From NCBI RefSeq assembly GCF_024362365.1, contig NZ_CP101464.1, positions 124,001-188,000 on the forward strand: 64,000 nucleotides of DNA. Direction: 5' to 3'. Shown piece by piece: positions 36,298-53,209 of the stretch. The notes under the pieces were generated by a model that was given only the letters and a program-made list of their open reading frames with translations, ran no database searches and was not told the DNA's origin. A program made the translations under genes and the position numbers. The stretch's first letter is position 1, and every line of letters starts with the position of its first letter. Source of the DNA: Janibacter sp. CX7 (GTDB taxonomy: Bacteria > Actinomycetota > Actinomycetes > Actinomycetales > Dermatophilaceae).

Positions 36298-37383
36298 ATG
36301 GCACCGGTCAGCGAAGGCGCCGACACCACGCGACTCGACCAGATCGCGGGTGGTCTGCGCGCCAACGCCCATGCGACCCGCACCGTGGGGGTGACCGGCA
36401 GCCAGCTCGTGACCGTCCTCGCGGAGTCGTGGATGGGCCCGGACATGGAGCACTTCGCCGCCGAGTGGAGCGCGGCCCGGCCCAGGATCGACGCCGCCGC
36501 CGACATGCTCAGCCGCCTCGAGCAGGAGCTGCAGCGCCAGGCCGCCGACCAGGAGCGGACGAGCAGCCGCTTGGGTGGCGGAGGCGGCGCGGGCTCGGGC
36601 GGTCCGGGGCCCAGCAGCGCCGCGACCGACGGCTCTCCCGAGCCGCACCGTAACGGCGACGGTCCCATGGAGCGCCCGGGCAGCGTGTTCGACCGGATGA
36701 GAGGTGTTCTCGAGAGCGTGGGGCTGTGGGGCGACGACCCGGTGAGGGAGGTCCCCGAGGACAAGCGACCCGACGACCCCGGCGTCGACGGCGTCACCCT
36801 CCCCGCGGGAGCCGACCCCGACGACCCCCTGGTCCAGGAGCTGATGGCCTCGCCGCGTGGCCGCGAGACCCTCCAGTGGATGACGGACAACGACGTCACG
36901 CTGGCCCCGGCCGAGGGCTCGGGCACCTACTACGACCCCGAGAGCAACACGATGTACATCGCGAGCTCGGCGGACGGCTCGTCGGCGATCCACGAGGCGA
37001 GCCACGCCCAGTGGGATGCCGAGGGCACTCGTGCGGACGCGACCAAGGTGTCGCAGGAGGACTACGTCCGCAGCCAGATCGACAACGAGGTCGACGCCAC
37101 GACGGAGGGCATCTACTACGACAAGGAGATGCGCATGCGTGGCTACCCGATCGAGCGGTCCACCACCGAGGTCAACTACGACACGGCTTACACCGAGGCG
37201 ATCGACGCGGGCAAGACGCCCGAGGAGGCCGACGCCGCGGGGCGCGAGCGGGTGCGTGAGATGTTCGTGGCGGGCGAGGACGGAGCCGTCGAGTTCGAGA
37301 CCTCGACCACCGGTGAGGGCTACGAGGAGTACTACGCCGACCAGTGGCAGGACGTCCGCGAGGAGGCCGGCGAGGGCGGCTGA
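36298..37383 (+). CDS. WXG100-like N-domain fused to a putative HExxH metallopeptidase (copy 1)
   Basis: A 361-residue protein without a signal peptide. Residues 8-90 form two helices with W-x-G (Trp45-Met46-Gly47) at the turn, the ESAT-6/WXG100 hallmark. A Gly/Ser/Pro linker (about 92-125) follows, then a C-terminal domain with HEASH (232-236), a canonical HExxH, and Glu264 in IDNEV, a possible third zinc ligand 28 residues on. The ending GEGYEEYYADQW is acidic. WXG100 domains usually direct secretion by type VII/ESX systems; such machinery is not in this window. It is a paralogue of 52259-53209. A secreted protease or toxin is inferred only. GAAGGGGAGG precedes the ATG. Confidence 0.75.
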   Translation: MAPVSEGADTTRLDQIAGGLRANAHATRTVGVTGSQLVTVLAESWMGPDMEHFAAEWSAARPRIDAAADMLSRLEQELQRQAADQERTSSRLGGGGGAGSGGPGPSSAATDGSPEPHRNGDGPMERPGSVFDRMRGVLESVGLWGDDPVREVPEDKRPDDPGVDGVTLPAGADPDDPLVQELMASPRGRETLQWMTDNDVTLAPAEGSGTYYDPESNTMYIASSADGSSAIHEASHAQWDAEGTRADATKVSQEDYVRSQIDNEVDATTEGIYYDKEMRMRGYPIERSTTEVNYDTAYTEAIDAGKTPEEADAAGRERVREMFVAGEDGAVEFETSTTGEGYEEYYADQWQDVREEAGEGG

Positions 37384-37389
37384 TCGTCG

Positions 37390-38232
37390 TCATCCCTGCT
37401 GCCGCAGGATCGCCCGGTACCCCTCGCGATAGGTCGGGTACCGCAGCTCGACCCCCGTCGCCCGCAGGCGCGCGTTGAGCAGGCGCCGGCCCGTCGGCTC
37501 GAGCATCCCGGTGGACTCGGGCCGCGGGACCCCCAGCTCGTCGGCCACGAGGTCGCGCACGTCGCCGGCGAGCGCCGGCTCGTCGTCGGTGCCGACGTAG
37601 AGGTCTGCCGGGTCCGCGGCCATCGTCAGCAGGTGGGTGATCACGGCGGCGGCGTCCTCGCGGTGGATCCGGTTGGTCCAGCGCCCGGGGTCGGGGTTGT
37701 CGCCGGCCTGCACCCGCTGCACGAGCCGGCTGCCGGGCCGCCCGTAGAGACCGCTGAGGCGCAGCACCGTGCCGTGGGGGAGGGCCGCGTGGAAGAGCGC
37801 CTCCGACTCGAGCAGGATCTGCGGCCGATCCGCCTGTGGCGCAACGGCGGTCGTCTCGTCGAGCTCTCCCTCGAGGTCGCCGTAGACGCTCGTCGACGAC
37901 ACGAGCACGGCCCGTCGAGGAGTGCCGGCCCGAAGCACCGCGTCCAGGCCTCGCCGCACCGCCTCGACATAGGTGGTGCGATAACCGGCCGGATCGCGCC
38001 GGTCGGGGGTCATCGTGATGACGAGCAGGTCCGCCGGCAGGTCGGGTACGGCCCCGGCCACCAGGTCAGCGGCCACGCCGCGGATGTGCGGCGGCAGGGC
38101 CGCGACGGTGCGACGCACCCCGGTGACGTCCACCCCCTTCGCATGGAGCGCGGTGCCGACGCGGATCCCGAGATCACCGCATCCCAGCAGCACAGCGCGA
38201 AGGGGGGAGCTGTCCGGTCGGTCCGTGGTCAC
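37390..38232 (-). CDS. NAD-dependent epimerase/dehydratase (atypical SDR, YeeZ-like)
   Basis: A 280-residue extended/atypical SDR. It opens RAVLLGCGDLGIRVG, the G-x-G-x-x-G dinucleotide motif, then SSTSVYGD, the Ser/Tyr region with Tyr, and LRLSGLYGRPG with a final nucleotide-sugar-like tail. YeeZ-type members have unknown substrates. The GTG start has GATAAT 6 nt upstream. It lies between WXG100 copy 1 (convergent, 6 bp apart) and the lipoprotein partner (same strand), and so separates that putative pair. Confidence 0.8.
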   Translation of the reverse strand: MTTDRPDSSPLRAVLLGCGDLGIRVGTALHAKGVDVTGVRRTVAALPPHIRGVAADLVAGAVPDLPADLLVITMTPDRRDPAGYRTTYVEAVRRGLDAVLRAGTPRRAVLVSSTSVYGDLEGELDETTAVAPQADRPQILLESEALFHAALPHGTVLRLSGLYGRPGSRLVQRVQAGDNPDPGRWTNRIHREDAAAVITHLLTMAADPADLYVGTDDEPALAGDVRDLVADELGVPRPESTGMLEPTGRRLLNARLRATGVELRYPTYREGYRAILRQQG

Positions 38233-38238
38233 CGCCCG

Positions 38239-38244
38239 ATTATC
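38239..38244 (-). promoter_or_regulatory. -10 hexamer GATAAT, leaderless start of the SDR gene
   Basis: On the minus strand GATAAT ends 6 nt before the GTG at 38232. It is one base from consensus TATAAT. Confidence 0.5.
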
Positions 38245-38261
38245 CCACCCGGGCGCCGGCC

Positions 38262-38993
38262 CTACCGGGCGATCGGGACGGGCAGGTCGCGCTCGACGAC
38301 CTCGGGGGTGTCCGTGATGGACCCGTCGGTCGCCACCCGGACGTCGTGGCGGACGAGGTCACCGTCGGTGACGGTCCACAGCCGCACCTCCCACGGCCCC
38401 TGACCGGTGGCCTTCGCGGGGGTGACGTCGTGGTCGCGGGTGATGGCGGCGATGCGGTCGGTCTGCTCGGGCGAGGGCTTCGGCAGGAAGCGGATGTCGT
38501 CGACGGCCTCGATGCGGGTGTAGCCCTTCGTCATGTCGCGGGTGGCGTCCGCGTGGACCGTGGCGAGCTCGACGGCCTGGTCGGCGCTGGTCACCTGCGC
38601 GCCCTCGGCCACCCGGCTCCACCGCTCGGGGAAGCCGCTGAGGACGACGACCTCGCTCCCTTCGCCCTTGACCCCGATGAACCATCGCTGCGGGTGCGCG
38701 CCCCCGCGGCTGAGCACGTCGACGACCTGCCAGTCAGCGAGTGCCGCCGCATCGACCGGGGTCGCGGTGGTGCCCTCCGCCCGCACCGCACGGGCGATCG
38801 ACGGGCTCACGTCCTCCAACGCCGTGGCGATCTGGTCCTTCATGTCCGTGCCTCCTGGGCTCGTGCTGCTCTGGGCTGTCGTGCTGGTGGTGCTCGTGGG
38901 GGCATCCGCCCCGCAGGCCGTCAACGCCACGGCGAGGGCGAGGCCCGCCAGGACGCGGTGTGCTCGGGCGGGGGCGGGGGGCAGTGTCAGCAT
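38262..38993 (-). CDS. Lipoprotein paralogue of the WXG100-partner protein (copy 1 partner)
   Basis: A 243-residue protein with a lipoprotein signal: basic residues, a hydrophobic stretch, and lipobox LTAC ending at Cys27, then a Ser/Thr-rich linker. The domain from about residue 85 is shared with the protein at 51681-52262: W-x-V-V-D-V-x-x-R-G-A-H-P-x-R-W-F, EVVVLSGFPERW, SADQAVELAT-HADATRDM-KG, PWEVRLWTVTDGDLV, and the ending LPVPIAR. I do not recognise the domain. In copy 2 this partner is coupled to a WXG100-metallopeptidase gene, so here it probably serves the copy 1 protein about 0.9 kb away. Membrane-outside placement would suit an immunity protein; that is inference. Confidence 0.75.
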   Translation of the reverse strand: MLTLPPAPARAHRVLAGLALAVALTACGADAPTSTTSTTAQSSTSPGGTDMKDQIATALEDVSPSIARAVRAEGTTATPVDAAALADWQVVDVLSRGGAHPQRWFIGVKGEGSEVVVLSGFPERWSRVAEGAQVTSADQAVELATVHADATRDMTKGYTRIEAVDDIRFLPKPSPEQTDRIAAITRDHDVTPAKATGQGPWEVRLWTVTDGDLVRHDVRVATDGSITDTPEVVERDLPVPIAR

Positions 38994-39081
38994 GGTGCGT
39001 GGACGCTATCTCGACCCCCGTGACGTCGACGTACGAGCCGGGGCGGGCCCCGGTCGATGGGGAGGTCTCCCCGTCGGCCCC

Positions 39082-39087
39082 TAGGGT
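39082..39087 (+). promoter_or_regulatory. -10 hexamer TAGGGT, leaderless start
   Basis: TAGGGT ends 6 nt before the ATG at 39094. Confidence 0.55.
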
Positions 39088-39093
39088 GAGGCC

Positions 39094-39894
39094 ATGACGC
39101 GACCTGACCCGCTCGACCTCTGGGAGCAGGCATCCCAGGACCTCCTCGCCGTCCTGCGCGACCTCGGCGACGACGACTGGGACCGGCCGGCGCTGCCGGG
39201 CTGGACCGTCCAGGACGTGCTCGCCCACCTCGCGCACCTCGAGTCCGAGGCGGCGGGCATGCCGCAGCCTGACGGCGGGCGCGTGGACGTCGAGGCGGCG
39301 GCCAACCAACCGATGCCCACGGACATCACCGAGGCGGGCGTCGTCGCGCGCCGTGGGCGCTCTGCCGCAACGCTGCTCGACGAGTTCGAGAACGCGTGTG
39401 CCCGTCGCCAGGAGGCGCTCGCCGGCCTCGACCTGTCCGACCCCAAGGCGCTGGCGCCCGGCTTCGCCGGTGAGCTCGGGTGGGACCTCGGCACCTGGCT
39501 GCGCAACCGCCCGATCGACCTGTGGGTGCACGAGCAGGACATCCGCCGGGCGACCGGCCGCGCCCTGACGACGACCGGCGTCGGGGCCGCGCACGTCGCC
39601 GGCATCATGACGCGCGCCTTCCCCGTGGCGCTGCGCCGGCTGCCCGTCGGCACCGCCGTCGTCGCCGAGATCTCCGGCCCGCAGGGCCGGGTGCTCGCTG
39701 CCCGGGTCGGCGACGACGGGAGGGCTGCTCCCTTCGACCCGAGCGAAGGGAGCGACGTCACCCTCGCGATGGACGACGCCACGTGGCTGCTGCTCACCGG
39801 CGGCCGGATCGACCCGGAGCAGGCGGACGTGCAGGTCACCGGCGACGAGGGCATCGCGCAGGTCGTCCTCGGGCGGCTCAACGTCACGCCCTGA
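39094..39894 (+). CDS. Maleylpyruvate isomerase family, mycothiol-dependent enzyme
   Basis: A 266-residue MDMPI-fold protein. Early motif LPGWTVQDVLAHLAHLE, with His residues at 43 and 46, and the second metal region IDLWVHEQDIRRATG with His, Glu and Asp are present. A longer C-terminal SCP2-like domain (about 170-260, with LLTGGRIDPEQADVQVTGD) is typical of this subgroup. It presumably uses mycothiol for an isomerisation or S-transfer. The ATG lies 6 nt after TAGGGT. The domain order differs slightly from the shorter relative at 5246-5872. Confidence 0.82.
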   Translation: MTRPDPLDLWEQASQDLLAVLRDLGDDDWDRPALPGWTVQDVLAHLAHLESEAAGMPQPDGGRVDVEAAANQPMPTDITEAGVVARRGRSAATLLDEFENACARRQEALAGLDLSDPKALAPGFAGELGWDLGTWLRNRPIDLWVHEQDIRRATGRALTTTGVGAAHVAGIMTRAFPVALRRLPVGTAVVAEISGPQGRVLAARVGDDGRAAPFDPSEGSDVTLAMDDATWLLLTGGRIDPEQADVQVTGDEGIAQVVLGRLNVTP

Positions 39895-39901
39895 CCGGGC
39901 G

Positions 39902-39907
39902 TAGCGT
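39902..39907 (+). promoter_or_regulatory. -10 hexamer TAGCGT, leaderless start of the aldo/keto reductase
   Basis: TAGCGT ends 7 nt before the ATG at 39915. Confidence 0.5.
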
Positions 39908-39914
39908 GAGCCGC

Positions 39915-40925
39915 ATGGAGTACCGATACCTCGGCAAGAGTGGTCTCAAGATCAGCGAGATCGCGTACGGCAACTGGCTCACCCACGGCTCGCAGGTCGA
40001 GGCCGACGCCGCGACCGCCTGCGTGCGCGCGGCCCTCGACCACGGCATCTCGACCTTCGACACCGCCGACGTCTACGCCAACACCAAGGCGGAGAGCGTC
40101 CTCGGCGAAGCCCTCAAGGGCGAGCGCCGCGAGTCGCTCGAGATCCTCACCAAGGTCTACTGGCCGACCGGCCCTGGCGGGCACAACGACTCCGGCCTGT
40201 CCGCGAAGCACATCCGCGAGTCGATCGACGGCTCGCTGCGCCGGCTGCAGACCGACTACGTCGACCTCTACCAGGCGCACCGCTTCGACACCGAGACGCC
40301 GCTCGAGGAGACGATGCAGGCCTTCGCCGACGTCGTGCGGCAGGGCAAGGCGCTCTACATCGGCGTCAGCGAGTGGACGGCCGAGCAGATCCGCGAGGGC
40401 CACCGCCTGGCAAGCGAGCTCGGCATCCGCCTCATCTCGAGCCAGCCGCAGTACTCGATGATCTGGCGGGTCATCGAGGGCGAGGTCGTCCCGACCTGCG
40501 AGGAGCTCGGCCTCTCGCAGATCGTGTGGAGCCCGATCGCCCAGGGCGTCCTCACCGGCAAGTACCAGCCCGGTCAGCCCCTGCCCGAAGGGAGCCGCGC
40601 CGCCCACGAGGAGGTCGGCGGCTCCATCGCGGGCCGGGTCCAGGACGACGCCCTGCTCACCGCGGTCCAGGGGCTGCGGCCGATCGCCGACGAGGTCGGC
40701 CTGTCGATGGCCCAGCTCGCCGTCGCGTGGGTGCTGCAGAACTCCAACGTCGCTGCCGCGATCATCGGCGCCTCGCGACCGGAGCAGGTGGAGGAAAACG
40801 TCGCCGCGTCCGGCGTGACGCTCGAGCCGCAGGTCCTGGCGCAGATCGATGCCGTCCTCGGCGAGCACGTCGAGCGCGACGCCGGCCTGACCGAGGCCAA
40901 CGCGCCCAAGCGTCGCCCGAGCTGA
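39915..40925 (+). CDS. Aldo/keto reductase (KCAB-like)
   Basis: A 336-residue TIM-barrel oxidoreductase. It opens YRYLGKSGLKISEIAYG; the AKR tetrad is Asp and Tyr in FDTADVYANTKAE, a Lys in LEILTKVYW, and a His in YQAHRFD. The C-terminal NADPH-binding region is AAIIGASRPEQVEENV. The pattern SSQPQYSMI and the VEGEVVPTCEELG-like region place it with the potassium-channel beta/YghZ-like AKR group. It reduces aldehydes or ketones with NADPH in the cytoplasm. Confidence 0.9.
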   Translation: MEYRYLGKSGLKISEIAYGNWLTHGSQVEADAATACVRAALDHGISTFDTADVYANTKAESVLGEALKGERRESLEILTKVYWPTGPGGHNDSGLSAKHIRESIDGSLRRLQTDYVDLYQAHRFDTETPLEETMQAFADVVRQGKALYIGVSEWTAEQIREGHRLASELGIRLISSQPQYSMIWRVIEGEVVPTCEELGLSQIVWSPIAQGVLTGKYQPGQPLPEGSRAAHEEVGGSIAGRVQDDALLTAVQGLRPIADEVGLSMAQLAVAWVLQNSNVAAAIIGASRPEQVEENVAASGVTLEPQVLAQIDAVLGEHVERDAGLTEANAPKRRPS

Positions 40926-40943
40926 CCGCGGGGGCGGCCGGGC

Positions 40944-41453
40944 TCACCCCTGCCCGGCCGCCCACTCCCGCACCCGCGCCGCCGACTCCTCGTCGGACAG
41001 GTCCTCGACGCGGGTCATGACGGCCCAGCGCAGCCCGTGCGGGTCGCGGATCGAGGCGAAGCGGTCGCCGGAGACGAAGTCGGCGAGCGGCTCCCGGATC
41101 GTCGCGCCCGCGGCCTGCGCCTCGGCGACCACGGCGTCGACGTCGGGCACGTAGAGCGCGATCGAGGAGCAGACGACGTCGTCCTCGTGGGGTGCGACGA
41201 GACCGAAGTCCGGCATCGGGTCGGAGATCTGCAGCCGGCCCCGCCCGAAGTCGAGCGTCGCGTGCGCGACGAGAGTCCCTCCCTTCCCGTCCGGCATGTG
41301 CGTCACGTCGACCGTGCGCGCGCCGAAGACCCGCTCGTACCACGCGATCGCGCCCTGCGCGTCCTGCACGGTGTGGAAGGGGGTCAAGCTGGTGAACCCG
41401 TGCGGCACGCCGTGGTCGGTGTGCTGGCCGGTCGCTGCGGTGGTGGTGTCCAT
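40944..41453 (-). CDS. VOC family protein (glyoxalase/PhnB-like)
   Basis: A 169-residue protein with one vicinal-oxygen-chelate domain. It reads LTPFHTVQDAQGAIAWYERVFGA with an N-terminal metal-site residue, then DFGRGRLQISDP, and VDAVVAEAQAAGATI, with DRFASIRDPHGLRWAV near the end. The tail is acidic. Members are metal-dependent lyases, dioxygenases or resistance proteins. The ATG lies 7 nt after TAGCGT, and it is divergent from the AraC-type regulator at 41532, whose likely target it is. Confidence 0.83.
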   Translation of the reverse strand: MDTTTAATGQHTDHGVPHGFTSLTPFHTVQDAQGAIAWYERVFGARTVDVTHMPDGKGGTLVAHATLDFGRGRLQISDPMPDFGLVAPHEDDVVCSSIALYVPDVDAVVAEAQAAGATIREPLADFVSGDRFASIRDPHGLRWAVMTRVEDLSDEESAARVREWAAGQG

Positions 41454-41460
41454 GGGTACG

Positions 41461-41466
41461 ACGCTA
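41461..41466 (-). promoter_or_regulatory. -10 hexamer TAGCGT, leaderless start of the VOC gene
   Basis: On the minus strand TAGCGT ends 7 nt before the ATG at 41453. It lies back to back with TACGCT at 41520. Confidence 0.5.
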
Positions 41467-41519
41467 GGCAGCCCGAGGGCGGGACGCTTGAAGATCTGCG
41501 CCAACCTCGTGGGTGCCCC

Positions 41520-41525
41520 TACGCT
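41520..41525 (+). promoter_or_regulatory. -10 hexamer TACGCT, leaderless start of the AraC regulator
   Basis: TACGCT ends 6 nt before the GTG at 41532; no ribosome site is visible. Confidence 0.5.
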
Positions 41526-41531
41526 CGGCCC

Positions 41532-42344
41532 GTGAGCGAGGCGATCCCGCGCAAGGGCCAGCTGCGTCCGGACGCCCGGGCGCCGGTCTCCCGGATCCTC
41601 CCGACGGCGGAGGGAGAGCCCCTCGCGCGGTGGTTCTGGGTGCCGGAGTGGGACCTGCCGGAGGGGGCGGTGCACGAGGCGCTGACGCTGCCCTTCCCTG
41701 CGTGCCAGCTCGTCGTCGAGGCCGATGCGGTGCGGGTGTACGGCCCGGTCTCCCGGGCCTGGCGGCGCGACCTCACCGGGCGCGGCTGGGCCGTGGGCGC
41801 CCTGCTGCGTCCGGGGGCGGCCCATGCGCTCGTCGGCGACGTGGGCACGCTGCGGGACCGCGACACCGAGACGAAGGGGGCGACCCGCCTCCACGCGGAC
41901 GTCACCCGGGTCATGGACGGCCCGGGCGACGCGGACGAACGGCACACCGCCGCAGCGCGGCTGCTCGAGGTCTGGCTCGCCACGCAGGTGGGGGCGGCGG
42001 TGGCCGCGGATCCCGACGCGGTCCCGGCCCGGCGTCTCGTCGAGCTGGCCGACAGCGACCCCTCCCTGCTGCGGGTCGACGACCTCGCCGCGCGACTGGG
42101 TGCGTCCGTGCGCACCCTGCAGCGCTTGGCGAGCACGCACGTCGGGATGAGCCCGGGGGAGATCATCCGTCGCCGCCGGCTGCAGGAGGCGGCCGAGCGC
42201 GTCCGTGAGGAGCCGGGAGCCGACCTGTCGACGATCGCCGCGGACCTCGGCTACGCCGACCACGCCCACCTCACACGCGAGTTCGGCAGGATGCTCGGCT
42301 TCACCCCGACCGGGTACCGCGCCGGGGGCACTGAGTCACACTGA
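41532..42344 (+). CDS. AraC family transcriptional regulator
   Basis: A 270-residue regulator. N-terminal cupin-like sensor with DUF6597-type pattern (ARWFWVPEWDLPEG, then TLPFPACQLVVEADAVRVYG). The C-terminal double HTH is at about 180-262: LRVDDLAARLGASVRTLQRLASTHVGMSPGE in parts, then LSTIAADLGYADHAHLTREFGRMLGFTPTGYR, the AraC second HTH signature. It is divergent from the VOC gene and probably controls it. The GTG start lies just after TACGCT. A perfect hairpin overlaps the stop codon. Confidence 0.87.
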   Translation: MSEAIPRKGQLRPDARAPVSRILPTAEGEPLARWFWVPEWDLPEGAVHEALTLPFPACQLVVEADAVRVYGPVSRAWRRDLTGRGWAVGALLRPGAAHALVGDVGTLRDRDTETKGATRLHADVTRVMDGPGDADERHTAAARLLEVWLATQVGAAVAADPDAVPARRLVELADSDPSLLRVDDLAARLGASVRTLQRLASTHVGMSPGEIIRRRRLQEAAERVREEPGADLSTIAADLGYADHAHLTREFGRMLGFTPTGYRAGGTESH

Positions 42345-42351
42345 CTCAGTG
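42329..42351 (+). terminator. 10-bp hairpin overlapping the AraC stop codon
   Basis: CACTGAGTCA (42329-42338), loop CAC, TGACTCAGTG (42342-42351), a perfect stem. The TGA stop of the AraC gene lies within the right arm. It may be a terminator or a stability element. Confidence 0.55.
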
Positions 42352-42391
42352 TCCGGACCGCTGGGTCGCGGCACAGCCCGGCCCGGGAATG

Positions 42392-42443
42392 GCCAGTCGA
42401 AGAAGGAGCGCGACATCCAGGTCGCGGATCTTCTTCGACTGGC
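42392..42443 (+). terminator. Long hairpin before the ICMT-family gene
   Basis: GCCAGTCGAAGAA (42392-42404) and TTCTTCGACTGGC (42431-42443) pair exactly, 13 bp. An inner stem GCGAC/GTCGC encloses ATCCAG. No U-tract follows. It separates the AraC gene from the methyltransferase-like gene and could be a terminator or regulatory RNA element. Confidence 0.5.
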
Positions 42444-42499
42444 GGAGGGGGTGAGGTCCTCGTCATCATCGGGGCCTGTCCACGGAGGGCCGACGCGAC

Positions 42500-42505
42500 T
42501 ACCGT
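42500..42505 (+). promoter_or_regulatory. -10 hexamer TACCGT, leaderless start
   Basis: TACCGT ends 6 nt before the ATG at 42512. Confidence 0.5.
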
Positions 42506-42511
42506 TGGTGC

Positions 42512-42961: not shown

Positions 42962-43025
42962 CCTTGGGCGCCGGCCCGCGCCCGCGTCTGCCCGCGCCCG
43001 TGAGCCGGCCCGCGCCCGGGGCGGC

Positions 43026-43828: not shown

Positions 43829-43848
43829 GCGCCCGAGTCTGCCGGAGG

Positions 43849-44640
43849 TCAGTCCGACTGGTCGGCCAAGCCGGCCCGGCCGAGCCACGGGCCGGTGAGC
43901 TCGGCGACCGACTGGGTGAGCGCCTTTTGCAGCAGCGGGCCGAAGGTCACCCGGCGCACCCCCGCGTCGCGCAGCTCCTGCAGGGACCCCGAGGGGGCGC
44001 CGTCGACGGGGTGGGCGGTGACGTTGAGCGGCAGCGAGGTCGCCTCCATGAGGGTGGCGAGGGTGGCCGCGTCGGGGATCTTCACCGGGTAGACGCAGCG
44101 GGCCCCGGCCTCCTCGCACGCCCGGATGCGGGTGATCGCCTCGGCGACCGGGTCGGGGAAACGGTCGGTGCCGTGGAGCAGCGCGTCGGTGCGCGCGTTG
44201 ATGACGAGCTCGATGTCGGCCTCGTCGGCGGCCTGGCGCAGCGCCCCGATGTAGTCGGCGTGCTCGGCAACCTCGCGCACCCGGTCCTGCGAGTGCACGG
44301 TGTCCTCGACGTTGATGCCCACCGCGCCGGCGTCGAGGACCCGCTCGACGAGCTCGGCGGCGGGGGTGTCGTAACCGGACTCGACGTCGGCGCTCACCGG
44401 CACGCGCACGGCCGAGCAGATCCGACGGATGCCGTCGAGCGCGTCGTCCAGGGTCATGCCCTCGCCGTCCTGCTGCCCGCGCGAGTCAGCGAGTGGGTGG
44501 CTGCCGATGGTCAGGGCGGGGAAGCCCGCGTCGACGACCGCACGCGCGGACCACACGTCCCAGACCGTGGGCAGGACGAGGGTCTCGTCGGTGTGGTGCA
44601 GGCGGAGGAGGTCGCTGGCCAGGCTCTTGAGATCGCTCAT
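43849..44640 (-). CDS. Isocitrate lyase/PEP mutase superfamily protein
   Basis: A 263-residue TIM-barrel protein. It opens LVLPTVWDVWSARAVVDAGFPA, then VPVSADVESGYD with the Asp and Glu that bind Mg2+, GAVGINVEDT, and VINARTDALL. This is the PEP mutase/methylisocitrate-lyase-like branch, where the substrate and reaction vary (2-methylisocitrate, oxaloacetate or phosphonopyruvate). It does not carry the KKCGH motif of true isocitrate lyase. GGAG lies close to the ATG. It is followed by the LuxR remnant upstream and the frameshifted gene downstream. Confidence 0.82.
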   Translation of the reverse strand: MSDLKSLASDLLRLHHTDETLVLPTVWDVWSARAVVDAGFPALTIGSHPLADSRGQQDGEGMTLDDALDGIRRICSAVRVPVSADVESGYDTPAAELVERVLDAGAVGINVEDTVHSQDRVREVAEHADYIGALRQAADEADIELVINARTDALLHGTDRFPDPVAEAITRIRACEEAGARCVYPVKIPDAATLATLMEATSLPLNVTAHPVDGAPSGSLQELRDAGVRRVTFGPLLQKALTQSVAELTGPWLGRAGLADQSD

Positions 44641-45357: not shown

Positions 45358-45430
45358 GCGACGCCGCGTCCCCGGCGTGTCGCGCCGCCCCCACGCGGTG
45401 CCACGACGCGCGCTCGTCGGGGGATGCGTG

Positions 45431-45436
45431 TAGCGT
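45431..45436 (+). promoter_or_regulatory. -10 hexamer TAGCGT for the egt operon
   Basis: TAGCGT lies 71 nt before the ATG at 45508, so a leader of about 65 nt is expected. The leader includes GGAGG as ribosome site. Confidence 0.45.
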
Positions 45437-45507
45437 CGAACCCGTCCGAAGCTCCACTTGCCCGGTGCCCGACGGTGGTCGTCAACCTCCGTCGCATGGA
45501 GGACAGC

Positions 45508-46758: not shown

Positions 46759-47711
46759 GCCGCGCCGAGCTCGAGGCCGACCTCCGCTCCGGCCTCTGGT
46801 CGCAGCCGGCGACCCTGCCGCCACGCTGGTTCTACGACGAGCGGGGCTCCCGCCTCTTCGACGAGATCACCACCCTGCCCGAGTACTACCCGACGCGTGC
46901 CGAGCAGGAGATCCTCACCCACCGCAGCGGCGAGATCATCGCGCTGAGCGCCGCGCGGAGCCTGCACGAGCTGGGGGCGGGCACGGCGACCAAGACCCGT
47001 GAGCTGCTCGACGCCCTCACCGCGCAGGGGCGGCCGGCGCTCTACGCGCCGCTCGACATCAGCAAGGAGGTCCTGCTCGAGGCCGCCGACCGTCTGCGCA
47101 CGGACTACCCGGCCCTGAACGTCGAGCCGGCGGTCGCCGACTTCCACCACCTGCCACCGCTGTCGGGGGAGCCCGGTGAACGTCTGCTCGTCTTCCTCGG
47201 CGGCACGATCGGCAACTTCGAGGAGGACGAGCGCTCCGGATTCCTCGACATGGTGCACGCGGCCCTCGCCCCCGGTGACCACCTGCTCCTCGGAGCCGAC
47301 CTCGTCAAGGACCCGGACCGGCTCGTCGCGGCCTACGACGACGGGGCAGGCGTGACCGCGCGCTTCAACCTCAACCTCGTCGACGTCATCACCCGCACCA
47401 CGCCGGTCACGGGTCTGTCCCGCGACGACCTCGTCCACGAGGCCGCGTGGGACGACCGCGCCTCGCGCATCGAGATGCGGCTGCGTGCGGTGCGTGACAT
47501 CACGGCCGACTTCACCGGGATCGGTCGCACGTGGCGCCTGGCGAAGGGGGAGCACCTGCGGACCGAGATCTCGCGCAAGTTCGACCTCGGCCTGCTCCGT
47601 GACGAGCTGACCGAGCACGGCTTCGAGCCGGTGACGAGCTGGACCGACGCGGTTGACGACTTCTCGCTGACCCTCGCCCGGGTCGCCGGCCGTGACGACG
47701 GCACGCCGTGA
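46755..47711 (+). CDS. egtD: Histidine N-alpha-methyltransferase EgtD
   Basis: A 318-residue SAM-dependent enzyme. It opens PRWFYDERGSRLFDEITTLPEYYPTRAE in parts, the EgtD N-terminal signature; SAM motif I is ELGAGTATKTRELLDAL, then APLDISKEVL, FLGGTIGNF and LLLGADLVKD. It converts histidine to hercynine, the substrate of EgtB. The GTG overlaps the egtB stop (GTGA). The next gene overlaps it in the same way. There is no egtA, egtC or egtE nearby; the pathway may use cysteine directly, or the other genes are elsewhere. Confidence 0.93.
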   Translation: MSRAELEADLRSGLWSQPATLPPRWFYDERGSRLFDEITTLPEYYPTRAEQEILTHRSGEIIALSAARSLHELGAGTATKTRELLDALTAQGRPALYAPLDISKEVLLEAADRLRTDYPALNVEPAVADFHHLPPLSGEPGERLLVFLGGTIGNFEEDERSGFLDMVHAALAPGDHLLLGADLVKDPDRLVAAYDDGAGVTARFNLNLVDVITRTTPVTGLSRDDLVHEAAWDDRASRIEMRLRAVRDITADFTGIGRTWRLAKGEHLRTEISRKFDLGLLRDELTEHGFEPVTSWTDAVDDFSLTLARVAGRDDGTP

Positions 47712-48331
47712 CCCGCACCCTCCTCGAGCGCTTCCACGGGCGCATCCTCGGGGCGGGCAGCAGCAGCGGGCTGCGGCTGGTGGTCGGCGACTGGTGGGAC
47801 TCGCCCCTCGGGGCCTTCACCGATGTCATGGTCGCGACGCCTGACGACCGTCGGGTCCTGCTGGCGCCGGACGACGAGGTCGCTCAGTACGTCGCCGCCA
47901 CGTACTCCTTCGACGAGGTCCGGGTCGGCCCGGTTGCCCTGCAGGTCGACGATGACGTGTGGCGCCTCGACGCAGGCCCGTTGCGGTGCACGATCGGTCT
48001 GGGAGGGCGCACGGCCCTCGGCCTGGTCCTGCGAACCGTGCCCGAGCGGGTGGGGCGCAGCCGCGCCTTCGCGCATCTCGCCGACCCCATCGCGCGGCGG
48101 CTGCTTCCGGGGGTGCGCACCGTCGGCAGCGCCGGCGGTGGGCGGCGCGAGTACTACGGGGCGCACGACCAGCGGCAGGTGACGTCGCTGTCCGGCACCT
48201 GGTCGGGCCAGTCCATCGGCGGCCTCACCCCGGTCACGCCGCCGCCACGATTCGGCTTCAGCTCCACGCCCGCGTCACCCAGCCTGACGCGGGTGACGAC
48301 GACCGTCGAGCGAGGCGTCGACGCGGACTGA
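47708..48331 (+). CDS. Hypothetical protein translationally coupled to egtBD
   Basis: A 207-residue protein of unknown family. Features: FHGRILGAGSSSGLRLVVGDWWDSPLG in parts, then VMVATPDDRRVLLAP and YVAATYSFDEVRV. It reads as a mixed alpha/beta protein with a polar, Ser/Thr-rich tail. The GTG start overlaps the egtD stop by 4 nt (GTGA), so it is the third cistron of the ergothioneine operon. A role in ergothioneine export, storage or use is possible by context only. I do not recognise it. Confidence 0.7.
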   Translation: MTRTLLERFHGRILGAGSSSGLRLVVGDWWDSPLGAFTDVMVATPDDRRVLLAPDDEVAQYVAATYSFDEVRVGPVALQVDDDVWRLDAGPLRCTIGLGGRTALGLVLRTVPERVGRSRAFAHLADPIARRLLPGVRTVGSAGGGRREYYGAHDQRQVTSLSGTWSGQSIGGLTPVTPPPRFGFSSTPASPSLTRVTTTVERGVDAD

Positions 48332-48379
48332 CGAGCGCAGTCGGGGCAGCGTGATGCCCGACCCGGCGAGCAGCTCGCC

Positions 48380-49726
48380 TCAGGTCGCCTCGTCGTAGCG
48401 CGCCAGGGCCTCGAGCCGCTCCTCCGCGTGGTCGACGATCCGCTCCGGGTAGTCGTGCGCGTACCCGTCGTCGTGCTTCCACGGCTCGTGCGCTGCGGCG
48501 CCCTCGAGATGGGCCAGCTCCGGCACCCACCGGCGCACGTACGCACCGTCGGGGTCGAAGCGCTTGCCCTGCGTGACGGGGTTGAAGACACGGAAGTACG
48601 GGGACGCGTCCGTGCCGGTGCCGGCGACCCACTGCCAGCCGTGGTTGTTGGACGCGAGGTCCCCGTCGACGAGGTGCTCGAGGAAGTGCCGCGCGCCGAC
48701 GGGCCACCACACGTGCAGGTCCTTGGTGAGGAAGCTCGCCGTGGCCATCCGCACCCGGTTGTGCATCCATCCCTCGCCGAGCAGCTGGCGCATGCCGGCA
48801 TCGACGATCGGGTAACCGGTGCGCCCCTCGCGCCACGCCTCGATGGCGTCTTGCGGTTCGTCGTAGCGAAGGGGGAGTGGCCGCAGGTCCTGCCACGCGG
48901 AGTCCGGGTTGGCCCAGAGCACGTCGGCGTAGAACTCCCGCCAGGCGAGCTCCGTGCGGTAGGTCTGCGCCCCGTCGCCGCGCTCGCCGCGCAGGTCGTG
49001 GAGGAGCTGGCGGGGATGGACGACCCCGAGGTGCAGGTCGGCGGACATGCGCGAGGTCCCCTCGACCGCCGGGAGGTCGCGATCGTGGTCGTAGTCGGCC
49101 AGCGCCTCGTCGCGGAAGCGCACCCAGCGCCGCCGGGCGGCGTCCTCGCCCGCGGTCGGCAGGTCGATCGGGCACTCGCGGGCCGCCTTGTCGAGCATCG
49201 CCTCGACCCGGCCGTCGGTGTCGGCCTCGATCCACTCGACCCCACGCGGCGCACTCGTCGGCTCGTCCCAGCCGTGCTCGCGCCACGCGGTGGCGAAGGG
49301 GTGAAGACCTTGAAGGGGTGCCTCCTTCGTCCGCACCGTGCCGGGGTCGACGGCAAAGGGCGAGCCGGTGGCCACACCCTCGACGCCGATCTCGCGCAGC
49401 GCGGCGACGACACGACGATCGCGCTCGACGCCGCCGGGCTCGTTCTCCCGGCTGACGTGGACCGAGGTGGCCCCGACCTCGCGGGCGACGCGCGGCACGA
49501 CCTCGGCCGGGTCGCCGAGCCGGATCACGAGGCGACCGTCGAGGGAGGCGTCAAGTGCTCGCAGGGTGGCGGCCAGCCACGCGGTCTTCGCCGCACCGGC
49601 CGGCCCCCACATCGTCGGGTCGATGACGAAGAGGGGGAGCACCGCACCGCGTGAGGCGGCTTCCCGCAGGGCTGGGTGGTCGCGCAGGCGCAGGTCCCGG
49701 CGGAACCACATGAGTGAGGGCGCCAT
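48380..49726 (-). CDS. phr: Deoxyribodipyrimidine photolyase (cryptochrome/photolyase family)
   Basis: A 448-residue DNA photolyase. N-terminal alpha/beta domain: LMWFRRDLRLRDHPAL and VLPLFVIDP. C-terminal FAD domain: TELAWREFYADVLWANPDSAW, RTGYPIVDAGMRQL, EGWMHNRVRMATASFLTKDL and NNHGWQWVAGTGTDASPYFRVFNP in parts, with the Trp and Asn of the electron path. It repairs cyclobutane pyrimidine dimers with blue light. The ATG overlaps the upstream oxidoreductase stop by one nucleotide (TGATG). It is the last gene of ohrR-ohr-oxidoreductase-phr. Confidence 0.92.
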   Translation of the reverse strand: MAPSLMWFRRDLRLRDHPALREAASRGAVLPLFVIDPTMWGPAGAAKTAWLAATLRALDASLDGRLVIRLGDPAEVVPRVAREVGATSVHVSRENEPGGVERDRRVVAALREIGVEGVATGSPFAVDPGTVRTKEAPLQGLHPFATAWREHGWDEPTSAPRGVEWIEADTDGRVEAMLDKAARECPIDLPTAGEDAARRRWVRFRDEALADYDHDRDLPAVEGTSRMSADLHLGVVHPRQLLHDLRGERGDGAQTYRTELAWREFYADVLWANPDSAWQDLRPLPLRYDEPQDAIEAWREGRTGYPIVDAGMRQLLGEGWMHNRVRMATASFLTKDLHVWWPVGARHFLEHLVDGDLASNNHGWQWVAGTGTDASPYFRVFNPVTQGKRFDPDGAYVRRWVPELAHLEGAAAHEPWKHDDGYAHDYPERIVDHAEERLEALARYDEAT

Positions 49727-50736
49727 CAGAGACGGACGAGCATCTTGCCCATGTTGGCACCGTCGAGCAGGTCCATGAAGGCCTGCGGGGCGGCGTCGAG
49801 ACCGTCGCGGAAGGTCTCGTCCGAACGCAGCCGCCCCTCGGCGAGCCACTGGGGCGCCCGGGAGTGGTACTCGGCGACGAGCTCGGGGTACTGACCGACG
49901 ACGAAGCCGCGCAGGGTCAGTCCCTTGCCGATGGCGAGGGCCAGGTTGCGGGGTGCGGCGGGCGGCTCGGTCGAGTTGTACTGCGAGATCGCCCCGCACA
50001 TCGCGACCCGACCGAAGGTCGACAGCGCGCCGATCGCGGCCTCGAGGTGCTCGCCGCCGACGTTGTCGAAGTAGACGTCGATGCCGTCGGGCGCGACCGA
50101 GGCCAGCCCCTCGGCGACGGGACCGTCGCGGTAGCTGAAGCCCGCGTCGTAACCCAGCTCGAGCACGCGAGCGACCTTGTCGGCCGAGCCGGCGGAGCCG
50201 ACGACCCGGCCGGCGCCCAGCGCCTTGGCGATCTGGCCGGCGGCCTGCCCGACGGCGCCGGCCGCGCCGGAGACGAAGACGGTGTCGCCCTCGCGCATGC
50301 CGGCCACGGCGGTCAGCCCGACGTAGGCCGTCAGGCCGGTGAGGCCGAGGACGCCGAGATAGGTCGAGGCGGGCGCGGCGTCGGTGTCGACGACCCGCAC
50401 GGACTTCGCCGGGAGCACCGCGTGCTCGCGCCAGCCGAGGCCGTGCAGCACGTGCTGGCCCACGGCGACGTCGTCGGAGCGGGAGGCTATGACCTCGCCG
50501 ACGGCGCCGCCGTCGAGCGGGGCGTCGATCTCGAAGGGGGCGACGTAGGACTTCACGTCGTTCATCCGACCGCGCATGTAGGGGTCGACCGACATGACGA
50601 CATTGCGCACGAGGACCTCGCCGTCGGCGAGCTGCGGCAGCTCGACGGTCTCGAGGCGGAAGTCGTCGGCGCTCGGTGCACCCTGGGGGCGCGCGGCGAG
50701 GACGATCTGGCGGGTGGTGGTGGGGGTGCTGGTCAC
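49726..50736 (-). CDS. NADP-dependent oxidoreductase (MDR, CurA-like)
   Basis: A 336-residue MDR without zinc ligands. Features: RMNDVKSYVAPFEIDAPLDGGAVGEV, then LTGLTAYVGLTAVAGM, the nucleotide fold VFVSGAAGAVGQAAGQIAKALG, and YFDNVGGEHLEAAIG. This is the CurA/leukotriene-B4-dehydrogenase-like subfamily that reduces alpha,beta-unsaturated carbonyls with NADPH. That fits the peroxide context: it lies 5 nt after ohr. The GTG start follows GAGG. It overlaps the photolyase gene by one base. Confidence 0.85.
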   Translation of the reverse strand: MTSTPTTTRQIVLAARPQGAPSADDFRLETVELPQLADGEVLVRNVVMSVDPYMRGRMNDVKSYVAPFEIDAPLDGGAVGEVIASRSDDVAVGQHVLHGLGWREHAVLPAKSVRVVDTDAAPASTYLGVLGLTGLTAYVGLTAVAGMREGDTVFVSGAAGAVGQAAGQIAKALGAGRVVGSAGSADKVARVLELGYDAGFSYRDGPVAEGLASVAPDGIDVYFDNVGGEHLEAAIGALSTFGRVAMCGAISQYNSTEPPAAPRNLALAIGKGLTLRGFVVGQYPELVAEYHSRAPQWLAEGRLRSDETFRDGLDAAPQAFMDLLDGANMGKMLVRL

Positions 50737-50741
50737 GCGCC

Positions 50742-51164
50742 TCAGTCCTGGACGACCGTGACGGTCACGTCGATGTTGCCGCGGGTGGCGTTGGAGTAGG
50801 GGCAGACCTGGTGGGCCTGGTCCGCGAGCTGCTGGGCGGCCTCGGCGTCGAGGTGCGGCAGGGTGACCTCGAGCTCGACGGCCAGCTGGTAGCCGCCGCC
50901 CTCCTTGGGGCCGATGTGCACGCGCGAGCCGACGGCGGAGTCGGCGACGTCGACCTTGCCGGCGCGGGCCACGGCCTGCAGCGCCGAGTGGAAGCACGCG
51001 GCGTAGCCGACGGCGAAGAGCTGCTCGGGGTTGGTCCCCTCGCCCGACCCGCCCATCTCCTGGGGGATCGCGAGGTCGAGGTCGAGGCGGCCGTCGCTGG
51101 TGCGGCCGTGCCCGTCGCGGCCGGCGCCGGTGGCGAGGGCCTCTGCGGTGTAGAGAGTCTTCAT
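50742..51164 (-). CDS. ohr: Organic hydroperoxide resistance protein (Ohr, OsmC family)
   Basis: A 140-residue OsmC-fold peroxidase. Catalytic Cys57 lies in YAACFHSAL and resolving Cys121 in VCPYSNATRGN, the Ohr signatures. It reduces organic peroxides with a lipoyl or thiol partner in the cytoplasm. The MarR-type ohrR gene is directly upstream, and the start ATG 51164 (MKTLYT) follows AAGGAG by 7 nt; an ATG two codons earlier overlaps the ohrR stop. An OhrR repressor at the two palindromes upstream should control both genes. Confidence 0.93.
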   Translation of the reverse strand: MKTLYTAEALATGAGRDGHGRTSDGRLDLDLAIPQEMGGSGEGTNPEQLFAVGYAACFHSALQAVARAGKVDVADSAVGSRVHIGPKEGGGYQLAVELEVTLPHLDAEAAQQLADQAHQVCPYSNATRGNIDVTVTVVQD

Positions 51165-51166
51165 CG

Positions 51167-51622
51167 TCATGCTCCTTGGGTGGGGGTGGGGGTGGGAGTG
51201 CCGACGGATGCGCAGAACCTCTGGGCCAGGCGACGCAGGGTCGCCAGCTCCTCGGGCTCCATGTCGACGGCGTCGTACAGGCGGCGCTGGATCGCCGCGA
51301 CCTGCGTCTCGAGGTCCCGACCGGCGGTGGTCAGGTGGATCGTCACGCGGCGGGCGTCCTCCCCTTCGCGACGGCGCTCGACGAGACCGCTCGCCGACAT
51401 GCGCTTGAGAAGGGGGGAGAGCGTCCCGCTGTCGAGGTGCAGCGCCTCGCCGAGCTCGGTGACGGTGCGGCCGTCGCGCTCCCACAGGGCGAGGAGGGTG
51501 ACGTACTGGGTGTACGTCAGCCCGATCTCGGCGAGGCCGTCGCGGTAGGCCGCGGTCGCCGAGCGCGACGCCGAGTAGAGGGCGAAGCAGATCTGCTGGT
51601 CGAGCTGGTGGTCCGTCTGCAC
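51167..51622 (-). CDS. ohrR: MarR family peroxide-sensing repressor OhrR
   Basis: A 151-residue MarR-family regulator. Cys12, the peroxide-sensing residue of OhrR, lies in QICFALYSASR; Tyr residues follow. The winged helix spans about 48-95 (TVTELGEALHLDSGTLSPLLKRM), with the wing GEDARRVTIHLT. When Cys12 is oxidised the repressor should release the operators at 51632-51658. The GTG start is fixed by the conserved opening DHQLDQQICFALY. It leads the ohr-oxidoreductase-phr operon. Confidence 0.92.
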   Translation of the reverse strand: MQTDHQLDQQICFALYSASRSATAAYRDGLAEIGLTYTQYVTLLALWERDGRTVTELGEALHLDSGTLSPLLKRMSASGLVERRREGEDARRVTIHLTTAGRDLETQVAAIQRRLYDAVDMEPEELATLRRLAQRFCASVGTPTPTPTQGA

Positions 51623-51631
51623 CTCTGAAGC

Positions 51632-51661
51632 ATTGCACGCAATTGGTTTGCGCGCAATCTA
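51632..51661 (-). promoter_or_regulatory. ohrR promoter with tandem OhrR-type palindromes
   Basis: ATTGCACGCAAT (51632-51643) and TTTGCGCGCAAT (51647-51658) are two near-perfect 12-bp palindromes with centres 15 bp apart. TAGATT on the minus strand (51656-51661) is a plausible -10, so the operators lie just downstream of it and across the transcription start. This is where OhrR would bind to repress its own operon. Confidence 0.7.
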
Positions 51662-51680
51662 TTCGGGCGGATCGAGGTGT

Positions 51681-52262
51681 TCAGCGCGCGATCGGCACCG
51701 GCAGGCCGGCGAGCTCGACGCCGGTCCGCTCGGTCACCGCGCCGTCCGGCGCCACGGTCACCTCGTGGAGCACGAGGTCGCCGTCGGTGACCGACCACAG
51801 CCGCACCTGCCAGGGCCCGTCACCCGCGACCCGGGGCGGCTCGGCGAGCGCGCGCACCTGCTCCCTCGCCTCGTCGACCTGCTGCCGGGCGTCCGCCCCG
51901 GTGGCGGGGCGGAGGCGCAGGTCATCGGCAGAGGTCAGGAGCTGCCACCCCTTCGCCATGTCACGGGTGGCATCGGCCCGCGCGGTCGCCAGCTCGAGCG
52001 CCTCGTCGGCGGAGCCCACCCGGGTGCCGTCGATCTGCGCCCAGCGCTCGGGATGGCCGCTCAGCACGACGACGCGGCCGTCGTCGGCGACGGCGACGAA
52101 CCACCGGGCCGGGTGCGATGCGCCGCGCCAGACGACGTCGAGCAGGCGCCACCCGCGCAGCGCCGCCACGGGCACGGGACGCAGACGGGTCCTGGCGTCG
52201 GTGACGACCGACGCCAGCATCGGCTCGTCCGTCGTCGTCGAGATGGTCGCGATGTCGGTCAT
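51681..52262 (-). CDS. Unknown partner protein of WXG100-metallopeptidase copy 2
   Basis: A 193-residue protein without signal peptide, so probably cytoplasmic. From residue 35 on it shares a domain with the lipoprotein at 38262-38993: W-R-L-L-D-V-V-W-R-G-A-S-H-P-A-R-W-F, VVVLSGHPERW, SADEALELAT-RADATRDM-KG, PWQVRLWSVTDGDLV and the ending LPVPIAR. The ATG overlaps the stop of the WXG100-metallopeptidase gene by 4 nt (ATGA), so the two are made together. No family is recognised. Immunity protein, chaperone or cofactor are all possible. Confidence 0.72.
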   Translation of the reverse strand: MTDIATISTTTDEPMLASVVTDARTRLRPVPVAALRGWRLLDVVWRGASHPARWFVAVADDGRVVVLSGHPERWAQIDGTRVGSADEALELATARADATRDMAKGWQLLTSADDLRLRPATGADARQQVDEAREQVRALAEPPRVAGDGPWQVRLWSVTDGDLVLHEVTVAPDGAVTERTGVELAGLPVPIAR

Positions 52263-53209
52263 GAGTTGTCCTCGTCCCACTGCTCGCCGTAGTAGTCCAT
52301 GTAGGTCTCGTCGCCGTCGCCCGTCGACGGGGAGTAGTAGCCGCTCTCGAAGAGCTCGCGGATCGCGGCGCGCCCGGCGGCGTCGGCCTCCTCGGGGGTC
52401 GCGCCGGCGGCGACGGCCTCGTCGTGGGCCACGAGGTAGTTGGTGATGTGCTGCTCGTCGGTCGACAGCGAGCTCTCGCCGTCGGCCGCCTGGTAGTAGT
52501 AGGCCTCCTGGGTCATCGCCTCGACCTCGCCGTCGATCTGCGCCGTGACGTACTCGTCGCGGGTGACCTCGGTGGTCTCGACGGTCAGGCCCTCGATGTC
52601 CGAGCGGGCGTGGCTCGCCTCGTGGATGAGCGACCACTCGTCGGCCGTCGAACCGAGGACGATGACGTCGGTGCCGGGGTTGTAGAAGGTGCCGCCGTTG
52701 CCGCCCACGACGACCTCGATGCCCTCGTCGGCGAGCCACTGCAGCAGCTCGCGGCCCTGCTCCGTCTGCATCAGCTCGGGCACACCGGGGTCGTCCGGGT
52801 CGAGCCCCTCGGGCAGCTCCGCGCCGGGGGAGCGGGCGATCTTGGTCATGCCGTGCCCCGGCTTGGTGTCCGTGTCGCCGTCCCCGGTGGCGGGCTCGGG
52901 GCTCACGCCCGGGGCGAAGGGGGCGCCCCCCGGCCTTGTCGTGCTCACCTCGTCCTGGTCCCCGGCCTGTCGCCGCAGGTCGCCGGCGAAGCCGTCGAGC
53001 CGGCTCGCGAGGTCGTCGACGACCCGGCTGGCGCCGGCCCAGCCGTGCGCGAAGTGCTCGACGTCGGGGCCCTGCCAGGCGTCGCCGAGCACCGCCAGCA
53101 GCCGGCTGCCCGTGGTGCCGACGTCGCGCACGTCCTCAGCGCACCGCCCGAGCTGGGCGGCGATCTCGTGCAGGCGCGCGGTGTCAGCGCCGTGGGTCAC
53201 CGGACTCAT
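52259..53209 (-). CDS. WXG100-like N-domain fused to a putative HExxH metallopeptidase (copy 2)
   Basis: A 316-residue protein, paralogous to 36298-37383. The WXG100-type N-domain has Trp45-Gln46-Gly47 at the same position as copy 1. After a shorter linker comes the domain with HEASH (196-200) and Glu228 in IDGEV, again 28 residues after the last His of the motif. The ending YYSPSTGDGDETYMDYYGEQW matches the acidic, Tyr-rich tail of copy 1. The ATG lies 6 nt after TAGGCT, so the mRNA may be leaderless. The partner gene overlaps its stop. A zinc protease or toxin exported by an ESX-like system is a hypothesis. Confidence 0.75.
   Translation of the reverse strand: MSPVTHGADTARLHEIAAQLGRCAEDVRDVGTTGSRLLAVLGDAWQGPDVEHFAHGWAGASRVVDDLASRLDGFAGDLRRQAGDQDEVSTTRPGGAPFAPGVSPEPATGDGDTDTKPGHGMTKIARSPGAELPEGLDPDDPGVPELMQTEQGRELLQWLADEGIEVVVGGNGGTFYNPGTDVIVLGSTADEWSLIHEASHARSDIEGLTVETTEVTRDEYVTAQIDGEVEAMTQEAYYYQAADGESSLSTDEQHITNYLVAHDEAVAAGATPEEADAAGRAAIRELFESGYYSPSTGDGDETYMDYYGEQWDEDNS

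Follow-up and report, generated by a model that had tools for sequence, protein, structure and literature searches.

What do two sets of genes, each combining a WXG100-type protein that ends in a peptidase-like domain with a protein of a second family, contribute to Janibacter sp. CX7, and are they copies of one duplicated cassette? The window analysed here is a stretch of 64,000 nucleotides (nt), positions C1:124001-188000 of the 3.23-Mb single-contig genome (G000 in our genome set). It carries the peptidase-like genes TOX1 and TOX2 and the partner genes IMM1 and IMM2, with the following layout:

36298..37383, plus strand: TOX1, 361 amino acids (aa), with a WXG100-like N-domain (W45-x-G47), a linker and a C-terminal HEASH...E264 peptidase domain
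36802..37353, plus strand: TOX1 catalytic domain as aligned
38262..38993, minus strand: IMM1, 243 aa, lipoprotein form of the partner
51681..52262, minus strand: IMM2, 193 aa, cytosolic form of the partner, with a 4-nt ATGA overlap with TOX2
52259..53209, minus strand: TOX2, 316 aa, with a WXG100-like N-domain and a HEASH...E228 peptidase domain
52262..52813, minus strand: TOX2 catalytic domain as aligned

An earlier note, made from the letters of this DNA, had read the four genes as a duplicated two-gene cassette coding for a toxin-like protease and an immunity or chaperone partner. Its coordinates for the genes and its positions for W-x-G, HEASH and Glu proved exact when the reading frames were checked, as did the overlap in copy 2 (TOX2 and IMM2, whose minus strand it had not mentioned) and the spacing of about 0.9 kb in copy 1, with an SDR-like gene between TOX1 and IMM1. 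We consider it fairly probable that TOX1 and TOX2 are type VII polymorphic toxins which, with a new family of immunity proteins, stand under a shared operator. The pattern is that of polymorphic toxins because a shared leader is joined to varied C-terminal domains, the partner is linked and co-inherited, partners also occur as orphans, presence is patchy and divergence is fast. This reading is based on observed sequence conservation, linkage, clade congruence, signal types, palindrome positions and co-occurrence.

Architecture and catalytic motif

TOX1 and TOX2 are 38% identical over 354 columns (E 1e-69), in agreement with the likeness that had been claimed for them, and the peptidase half of TOX1 matches only these two proteins in its own genome (E 0.1). 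In both, W-x-G occupies residues 45-47. The HEASH motif lies at residues 232-236 of TOX1 and 196-200 of TOX2 and is followed by a Glu (264 and 228, respectively) 28 residues past its last His. The H, E and H of HExxH and this Glu are invariant in all 37 aligned domains, a count that excludes the degenerate domain of G175, the broken copies of G002.C21 and G421, and those toxin matches in the distant family f35 that were not fetched at length. In the alignment that includes G175 (A3), the Glu is invariant and HExxH nearly so. The His and Glu pattern pointed out earlier is thus conserved in the family. We take the domain to belong to the gluzincin type, and the sequences make it probable that it is a zinc peptidase with the Glu 28 residues on as third ligand. 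No credible solved structural relative was found for TOX1, for the domain profile or for the partner profile.

Decayed forms also occur. A frame of about 12,000 codons in G175:C114 (L117) holds a degenerate peptidase domain without HExxH, and broken toxin or leader copies are present in G002.C21 (L070), G421 (L151) and G004 (L076); the partner in G421 is also shortened.

Linkage and joint inheritance of toxin and partner

The TOX2 catalytic domain and IMM2 were used as queries against 147 related genomes. The domain has matches in 12 of them and IMM2 in 15, or 11 once four weak rows (G070, G101, G005 and G014) are removed. The 24 toxin rows reduce to 20 toxin genes when three rows representing the broken second copy of G002.C21 and one chance match (G052:C1, E 3e-4) are left out, and the partner is the immediate neighbour of 16 of these 20. 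Across 394 genomes of the class, the domain was found in four and the partner in five; in G502, a member of family f35, they stand side by side.

In 200 genomes of this distant family, both the partner and the toxin domain were searched for. The partner profile gave 20 rows in 16 genomes, of which 19 were kept (G521 was left out); a toxin domain lies within 1.5 kb of 14, a broken domain of one, and none of four, one of these at a contig end. The toxin-domain search gave 29 rows in 17 genomes, with HExxH kept in 23. A partner lies within 1.5 kb of 15 of the 29, all of them among the 23 HExxH keepers, and of none of the six rows without HExxH. The two families therefore adjoin far above chance (16/20 in the relatives; 14/19 and 15/29 in f35), the question that the earlier note had raised. 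Partners with no toxin within reach are found in G319 (two), G243, G573, G535 and G538b. Four partner-less f35 toxins (G644, G613, G523 and G671; L185-L188) have a different N-terminal half, and a small helical gene lies near two of them.

A scan of genome contigs for one short peptide pattern identified 12 loci: ten in Janibacter, one in a Micrococcales metagenome-assembled genome (MAG) and one in a Planctomycetota MAG. In the last, the domain has a Flp-pilin-like leader (E 1.4e-5, under the cut-off), and its partner probably starts with a signal peptide. No plasmid match was found with the Planctomycetota domain as sole query.

The trees of toxins and partners are correlated (Mantel r 0.76 for 31 pairs, 0.83 for 12 Janibacter pairs and 0.86 for 14 f35 pairs; p 5e-5 each, the floor of 20,000 permutations), in a test that ignores shared genome history and leaves out the G015 pair, almost identical to that of G012, and, in the Janibacter subset, G004 and G052. 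TOX2 and IMM2 sit in matching four-member clades, and copy 2 is, judged from these sequences, an intact, jointly inherited pair.

The joint inheritance also bears on a further reading, in which the peptidase would be an effector against protists or other eukaryotes and the partner would shield the producer's own proteins. Zincins that act as effectors on eukaryotic cells are described in the available part of the source (PMC3482391), but a partner that is dedicated to the toxin, inherited with it and in some cases duplicated suits the needs of an antibacterial toxin, and we regard this explanation as very improbable.

The partner family and its location

IMM1 and IMM2 are also alike, as claimed (48% identity over 184 columns, E 2e-50), and are the only members of their family in the genome (E 0.1). 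IMM1 starts with a hydrophobic signal ending in a lipobox Cys (LTAC), ...LAGLALAVALTAC, which had been missed earlier; IMM2 has no export signal. Locations were classified with a simple lipobox motif and hydrophobicity rules, the Planctomycetota signal peptide being judged by eye. No known Imm family was recognized: 23 partners compared with Pfam gave 17 families, one member each, with a best E of 0.025. LpqN matches no more of IMM1 and of the partner profile than their signal regions.

An export signal is present in 25 of 42 partners (lipobox, and one Sec-like by eye). Pilin-type toxins (nine loci) have an exported partner in 9/9 cases, eight with a lipobox and one Sec-like by eye, and signal-less toxins (five loci from three genomes of one genus) have a signal-less partner in 5/5. 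The exact probability of this split is 0.0005, with kinship ignored. The leader class could not be assigned for G538a, G595, G004 and the Micrococcales MAG. Among relatives with non-WXG leaders, the location of the partner follows the export signal of the toxin. Within the WXG group to which the window belongs it is independent of the leader, because both forms occur. In G002.C4 a single toxin is flanked by a lipoprotein partner and a cytosolic one, which form a pair of sister tips on long branches of the tree. One partner family thus serves WXG, pilin-type and signal-less toxins, and it is probably, on the evidence of its sequences and their distribution, a new immunity family for such a peptidase.

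The earlier note had left the choice between immunity protein and chaperone open. In favour of a chaperone or a targeting factor for secretion, IMM2 is a cytosolic protein, and a 4-nt overlap such as that of its gene with TOX2 may also occur with dedicated chaperones. However, exported partners would be unable to act on a cytosolic substrate before its export, one family serves toxins with three kinds of leader, and orphan partners exist. The toxin-like protease with an immunity partner is therefore retained, and the chaperone is the less supported role, quite unlikely in our estimate, because 25/42 partners carry an export signal.

A type VII secretion locus and the WXG arsenal

The genome contains a type-1 locus (L080) composed of two WXG100 genes (the esx pair) and a gene for a 1465-aa FHA-FtsK protein. 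A type-1 EssC locus is present in all ten toxin-bearing Janibacter genomes, the relatives being 81-89% identical; the toxin of one of these genomes, G004, has no in-frame WXG leader. These ten genomes and G006, which has a type-1 locus and no toxin, share the esx pair with an exact copy of the palindrome described below 103-113 nt upstream. Toxin is also lacking in G005, which has a distant version of the type-1 locus (41%), and in G003, G007, G013 and G014, which have type 2 only among the part of the first candidates that was scored, the matches listed (to about E 1e-12) and the loci read, no search with the type-1 protein having been made. The probability of such a split of toxin and type-1 locus across the 16 Janibacter genomes by chance is 0.0014, a figure that takes no account of relatedness. 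The association with ESX/EccC genes that had been put up for checking thus takes a narrower form: the toxins occur together with one specific EssC-type locus, and the palindrome of its promoter also stands before the toxin genes. An ESX cluster is tabulated for Janibacter sp. HTCC2649 in the available part of published work.

Within this genome, the same WXG leader is joined to varied C-terminal domains. A calpain-like protease is clear (E 1.5e-31); the others are lipase-like (at the cut-off), a glycine zipper (weak) and further HExxH domains (weak or motif only).

Several neighbouring features of this arsenal were recorded. Two more WXG proteins with HExxH, L083:4003-5453 and 15384-17839 (G000:C1 about 3092002-3093452 and 3103383-3105838), have the motifs HEMRH and HETRH. 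Each has a DUF4919 partner; one pair overlaps, and in the other a GNAT/Nudix-like gene of opposite orientation lies between the two, a layout as in the window. Look-alike proteins of about 155 aa, possibly chaperones, are encoded beside WXG effector or esx genes (L084:5537-6001, L088:3424-4387 and L242:9085-9567); three of them were scanned and matched no Pfam family at E 0.01. In the window, a run of probable lipoprotein genes (57077-60798, minus strand) follows the large gene adjoining copy 2. A role in anti-phage defence was considered and rejected, the four proteins having no match in PADLOC at E 0.1.

A palindrome upstream of toxin and esx genes

Comparison of leaders brought out the palindrome GGGGAGNNCTCCCC, present beside the genes considered here as follows:

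36204..36217, no strand: GGGGAGCCCTCCCC, 80 nt upstream of the TOX1 start
39059..39072, no strand: GGGGAGGTCTCCCC, retained in the IMM1 leader
53246..53259, no strand: GGGGAGCGCTCCCC, 36 nt upstream of the TOX2 start

The window contains four exact copies; shuffles lead one to expect 0.87, even allowing one mismatch. The fourth copy (4170-4183) lies directly past the end, at 4169, of one gene, and a gene for a DUF7847 membrane protein follows about 290 nt further on. The whole genome has 21 copies, and two of the reversed pattern used as a control. A copy lies within about 110 nt upstream of the gene or its operon for 10 of the 11 genes with a TOX1-like WXG domain; it is missing at the eleventh (C1:2986196) and at two further WXG100 matches of this genome (C1:346740 and 2260423). 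In Janibacter and the J. melonis record (G052), it is found 36-80 nt upstream of all 18 WXG-type toxin genes (15 exact, three with one mismatch), a set in which the starts of G012b and G002.C4 were placed roughly and from which G004, a frame without WXG leader, was excluded. Random 250-nt windows from the WXG-rich loci of the genome contain an exact palindrome in 66 of 5000 cases.

The palindrome also precedes EssC-adjoining WXG100 genes in G006, G008, G012, G096 and G099, the last two from other families, and a one-mismatch form stands before a 95-aa gene following EssC in G005. It is missing upstream of the pilin-type toxin G051 and from six type-2 EssC loci (own genome, G003, G005, G007, G013 and G014), and the f35 toxin loci (196,507 bp) contain no exact copy. 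A general ESX operator was rejected. Of nine genomes above the cut-off for EccC_b, eight loci were examined (G098 was left out), and six of them (G016, G017, G024, G101, G001 and G095) have no palindrome with up to one mismatch; G032 has it 71 nt upstream of a gene for 359 aa that follows EccC, and G028 has it where no gene fits. The ten other copies in the genome have neighbours such as a gene of the CdiI_2 immunity family (at 335 nt), one that is Imm33-like, and MoxR, SPFH and DUF genes. The CdiI_2 match is one of two similar genes at G000:C1 about 2226408-2227704 (L223:909-2205), beside which no toxin gene was recognized.

The form of the palindrome is reminiscent of boxes of LuxR/NarL-type regulators. 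Four variants of it were sought in open-licence full texts, and no paper was found.

History of copy 1

Two further features matter for the history of TOX1 and IMM1:

37390-38232, minus strand: SDR-like gene, between TOX1 and IMM1
38994..39093, minus strand: IMM1 leader, part of which aligns with the MPI-TOX leader and the end with the TOX-IMM spacer of relatives

Genes were called with a simple codon-usage caller, not taken from annotation, and helicase, thioesterase, SDR, MPI (the gene at 39094) and AKR are labels of this analysis. TOX1 is the sister of the TOX1 of G011. IMM1 clusters with the partners of G008, G009b and G012b, the toxins of which form a clade excluding TOX1; the approximately unbiased (AU) test gives p 1e-5, the clade having been named after the tree had been seen. 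The gene order helicase - thioesterase - SDR - MPI - AKR is conserved, and between MPI and SDR the genomes G008, G009 and G012 have a toxin-lipoprotein pair. The window has only the partner there, about 70% identical to the partners behind the different toxin of these strains. The TOX1 position, between thioesterase and SDR, is common to G011 and G010. In eight of nine further Janibacter genomes neither site holds its gene; the region of G001 is not syntenic.

The description of copy 1 as a duplicated cassette, opened by the SDR gene, must accordingly be given up: TOX1 and IMM1 differ in clade and synteny, the IMM1 orthologue shares an operon with a different toxin in relatives, and both sites are empty in most of the genus members compared. 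When the IMM1 leader is aligned to the MPI-TOX leaders of G009, G012 and G008, only 0, 0 and 4 of 1000 shuffles, respectively, do as well, and for its end, including the start codon, aligned to the TOX-IMM spacer, 2, 8 and 10 of 1000 do, in shuffles that preserve base composition only. Read parsimoniously, these alignments make the leader a scar left when a toxin gene was deleted and its promoter and immunity gene were retained; alternatively, the partner may have been gained alone at this site.

Weighing of the evidence and proposed mechanism

Several observations weigh against type VII toxins with dedicated immunity. The WXG100 profile (PF06013) gives TOX2 23.1 bits (E 9e-5) and TOX1 14.9 bits (E 0.033), both under the Pfam cut-off of 27.3, and the co-occurrence with the type-1 locus has not been corrected for kinship. 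Four of the 20 toxin genes have no adjoining partner (window TOX1, G011 TOX1, G001 and G010.C1), and no partner was found at E 1e-3 for the toxin of G001, a 99% complete genome on one contig. In f35, 14 of 29 toxin matches have no partner within 1.5 kb; HExxH is intact in eight of the 14, including one at a contig end. WXG-type toxins have six cytosolic, seven lipoprotein and one both-form partner sets, and independent location events are few because the signal-less toxins come from so narrow a group. The palindrome is lacking in G025, where a WXG100 gene occurs with a type-1 EssC that is distant (42%), and about half of its 21 copies lie near genes without a known tie to type VII secretion.

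Some of these points would suit a secreted housekeeping peptidase, serving the producer's own envelope or nutrition rather than antagonism, with a dedicated inhibitor: motif-intact toxin genes are tolerated without an adjoining partner (G001 and G010.C1), and the palindrome also stands near MoxR, SPFH and other non-toxin genes. The patchy presence (10/16 Janibacter genomes), the empty sites amid conserved genes, the orphan partners and the fast divergence fit conflict genes better, and we consider a housekeeping role rather unlikely. As to divergence, TOX1 is 69% identical between the window and G011, and the genes from the helicase through the one at 43849 are 84-99% identical; two flanking genes further left are also low (69 and 74%).

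In the polymorphic-toxin reading, TOX1 and TOX2 would be effectors of the FHA-FtsK (EssC-like) type VII secretion system, with the WXG100 hairpin as export signal and the zinc-peptidase domain damaging unprotected cells. The IMM proteins would be immunity proteins dedicated to the peptidase, which they would block by binding to it, either in the cytosol, co-translated with the toxin (IMM2), or as a lipoprotein outside the membrane (IMM1). In copy 1, IMM1 would have lost its own toxin and been kept, TOX1 being carried separately. A transcription factor reading GGGGAGNNCTCCCC probably switches the toxins together with the esx genes and other WXG effectors. Secretion, catalysis, toxicity, binding or inhibition and the regulator are what we infer from the comparisons above. 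A wider proposal, on which we lean slightly to the side of doubt, is that GGGGAGNNCTCCCC is an effector-regulon operator conserved across Micrococcales families and listing much of the arsenal, that IMM is a new immunity family that changes compartment, and that the peptidase has been passed between type VII, pilin-type and signal-less carriers.

Comparison with known systems

The closest described domains are Tox-MPTase1-5, zincin domains of polymorphic toxins (Zhang et al. 2012; PMC3482391), for which the available part of the source tabulates no immunity protein. They likewise place an HExxH domain in exported modular proteins, with WXG among the leaders. They differ in that TOX has a linked partner and in score: the window toxins reach 16.8 (TOX1) and 12.8 bits with Tox-MPTase4 (PF15640; TOX1 E 0.0066), below the curated 25 bits. 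The putative metallopeptidase family DUF6782 (PF20573) matches seven of 22 members of the domain alignment at E 1 (best E 2.2e-10), and the Planctomycetota relative scores 26.8 bits against a cut-off of 27, whereas TOX1 and TOX2 have no match at E 1. A search of open-licence full texts found no paper on DUF6782.

Two type VII systems, compared by description from the available parts of their sources, resemble the IMM1 form. In TslA-TilA (PMC10730906) the toxin is neutralized by a lipoprotein outside the membrane and the number of immunity genes varies, but the toxin is a lipase with reversed domain order and two small helical partners, from Bacillota. TelC of Streptococcus (PMC6193138) acts outside the membrane and its immunity protein TipC has an N-terminal transmembrane domain and paralogues; TelC differs as an LXG toxin and lipid II phosphatase. 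Flp-pilin-led ADP-ribosyl cyclase toxins (PMC12605009, in its available part) differ in toxin domain, and relatives of the TOX domain likewise stand behind a pilin-like segment. Flp-pilin toxin leaders (PMC12605009) and type VII lipoprotein immunity (PMC10730906) are hence already known in print, as far as these portions go.

Implications

If the proposed reading is true, IMM supplies a partner family for a Tox-MPTase-like peptidase. One family in two locations, with one locus that has both, would form a natural experiment on the site of neutralization. The palindrome would allow type VII effectors to be recognized simply from sequence in Janibacter and its relatives, and would make the switching-on of the type VII arsenal directly testable.

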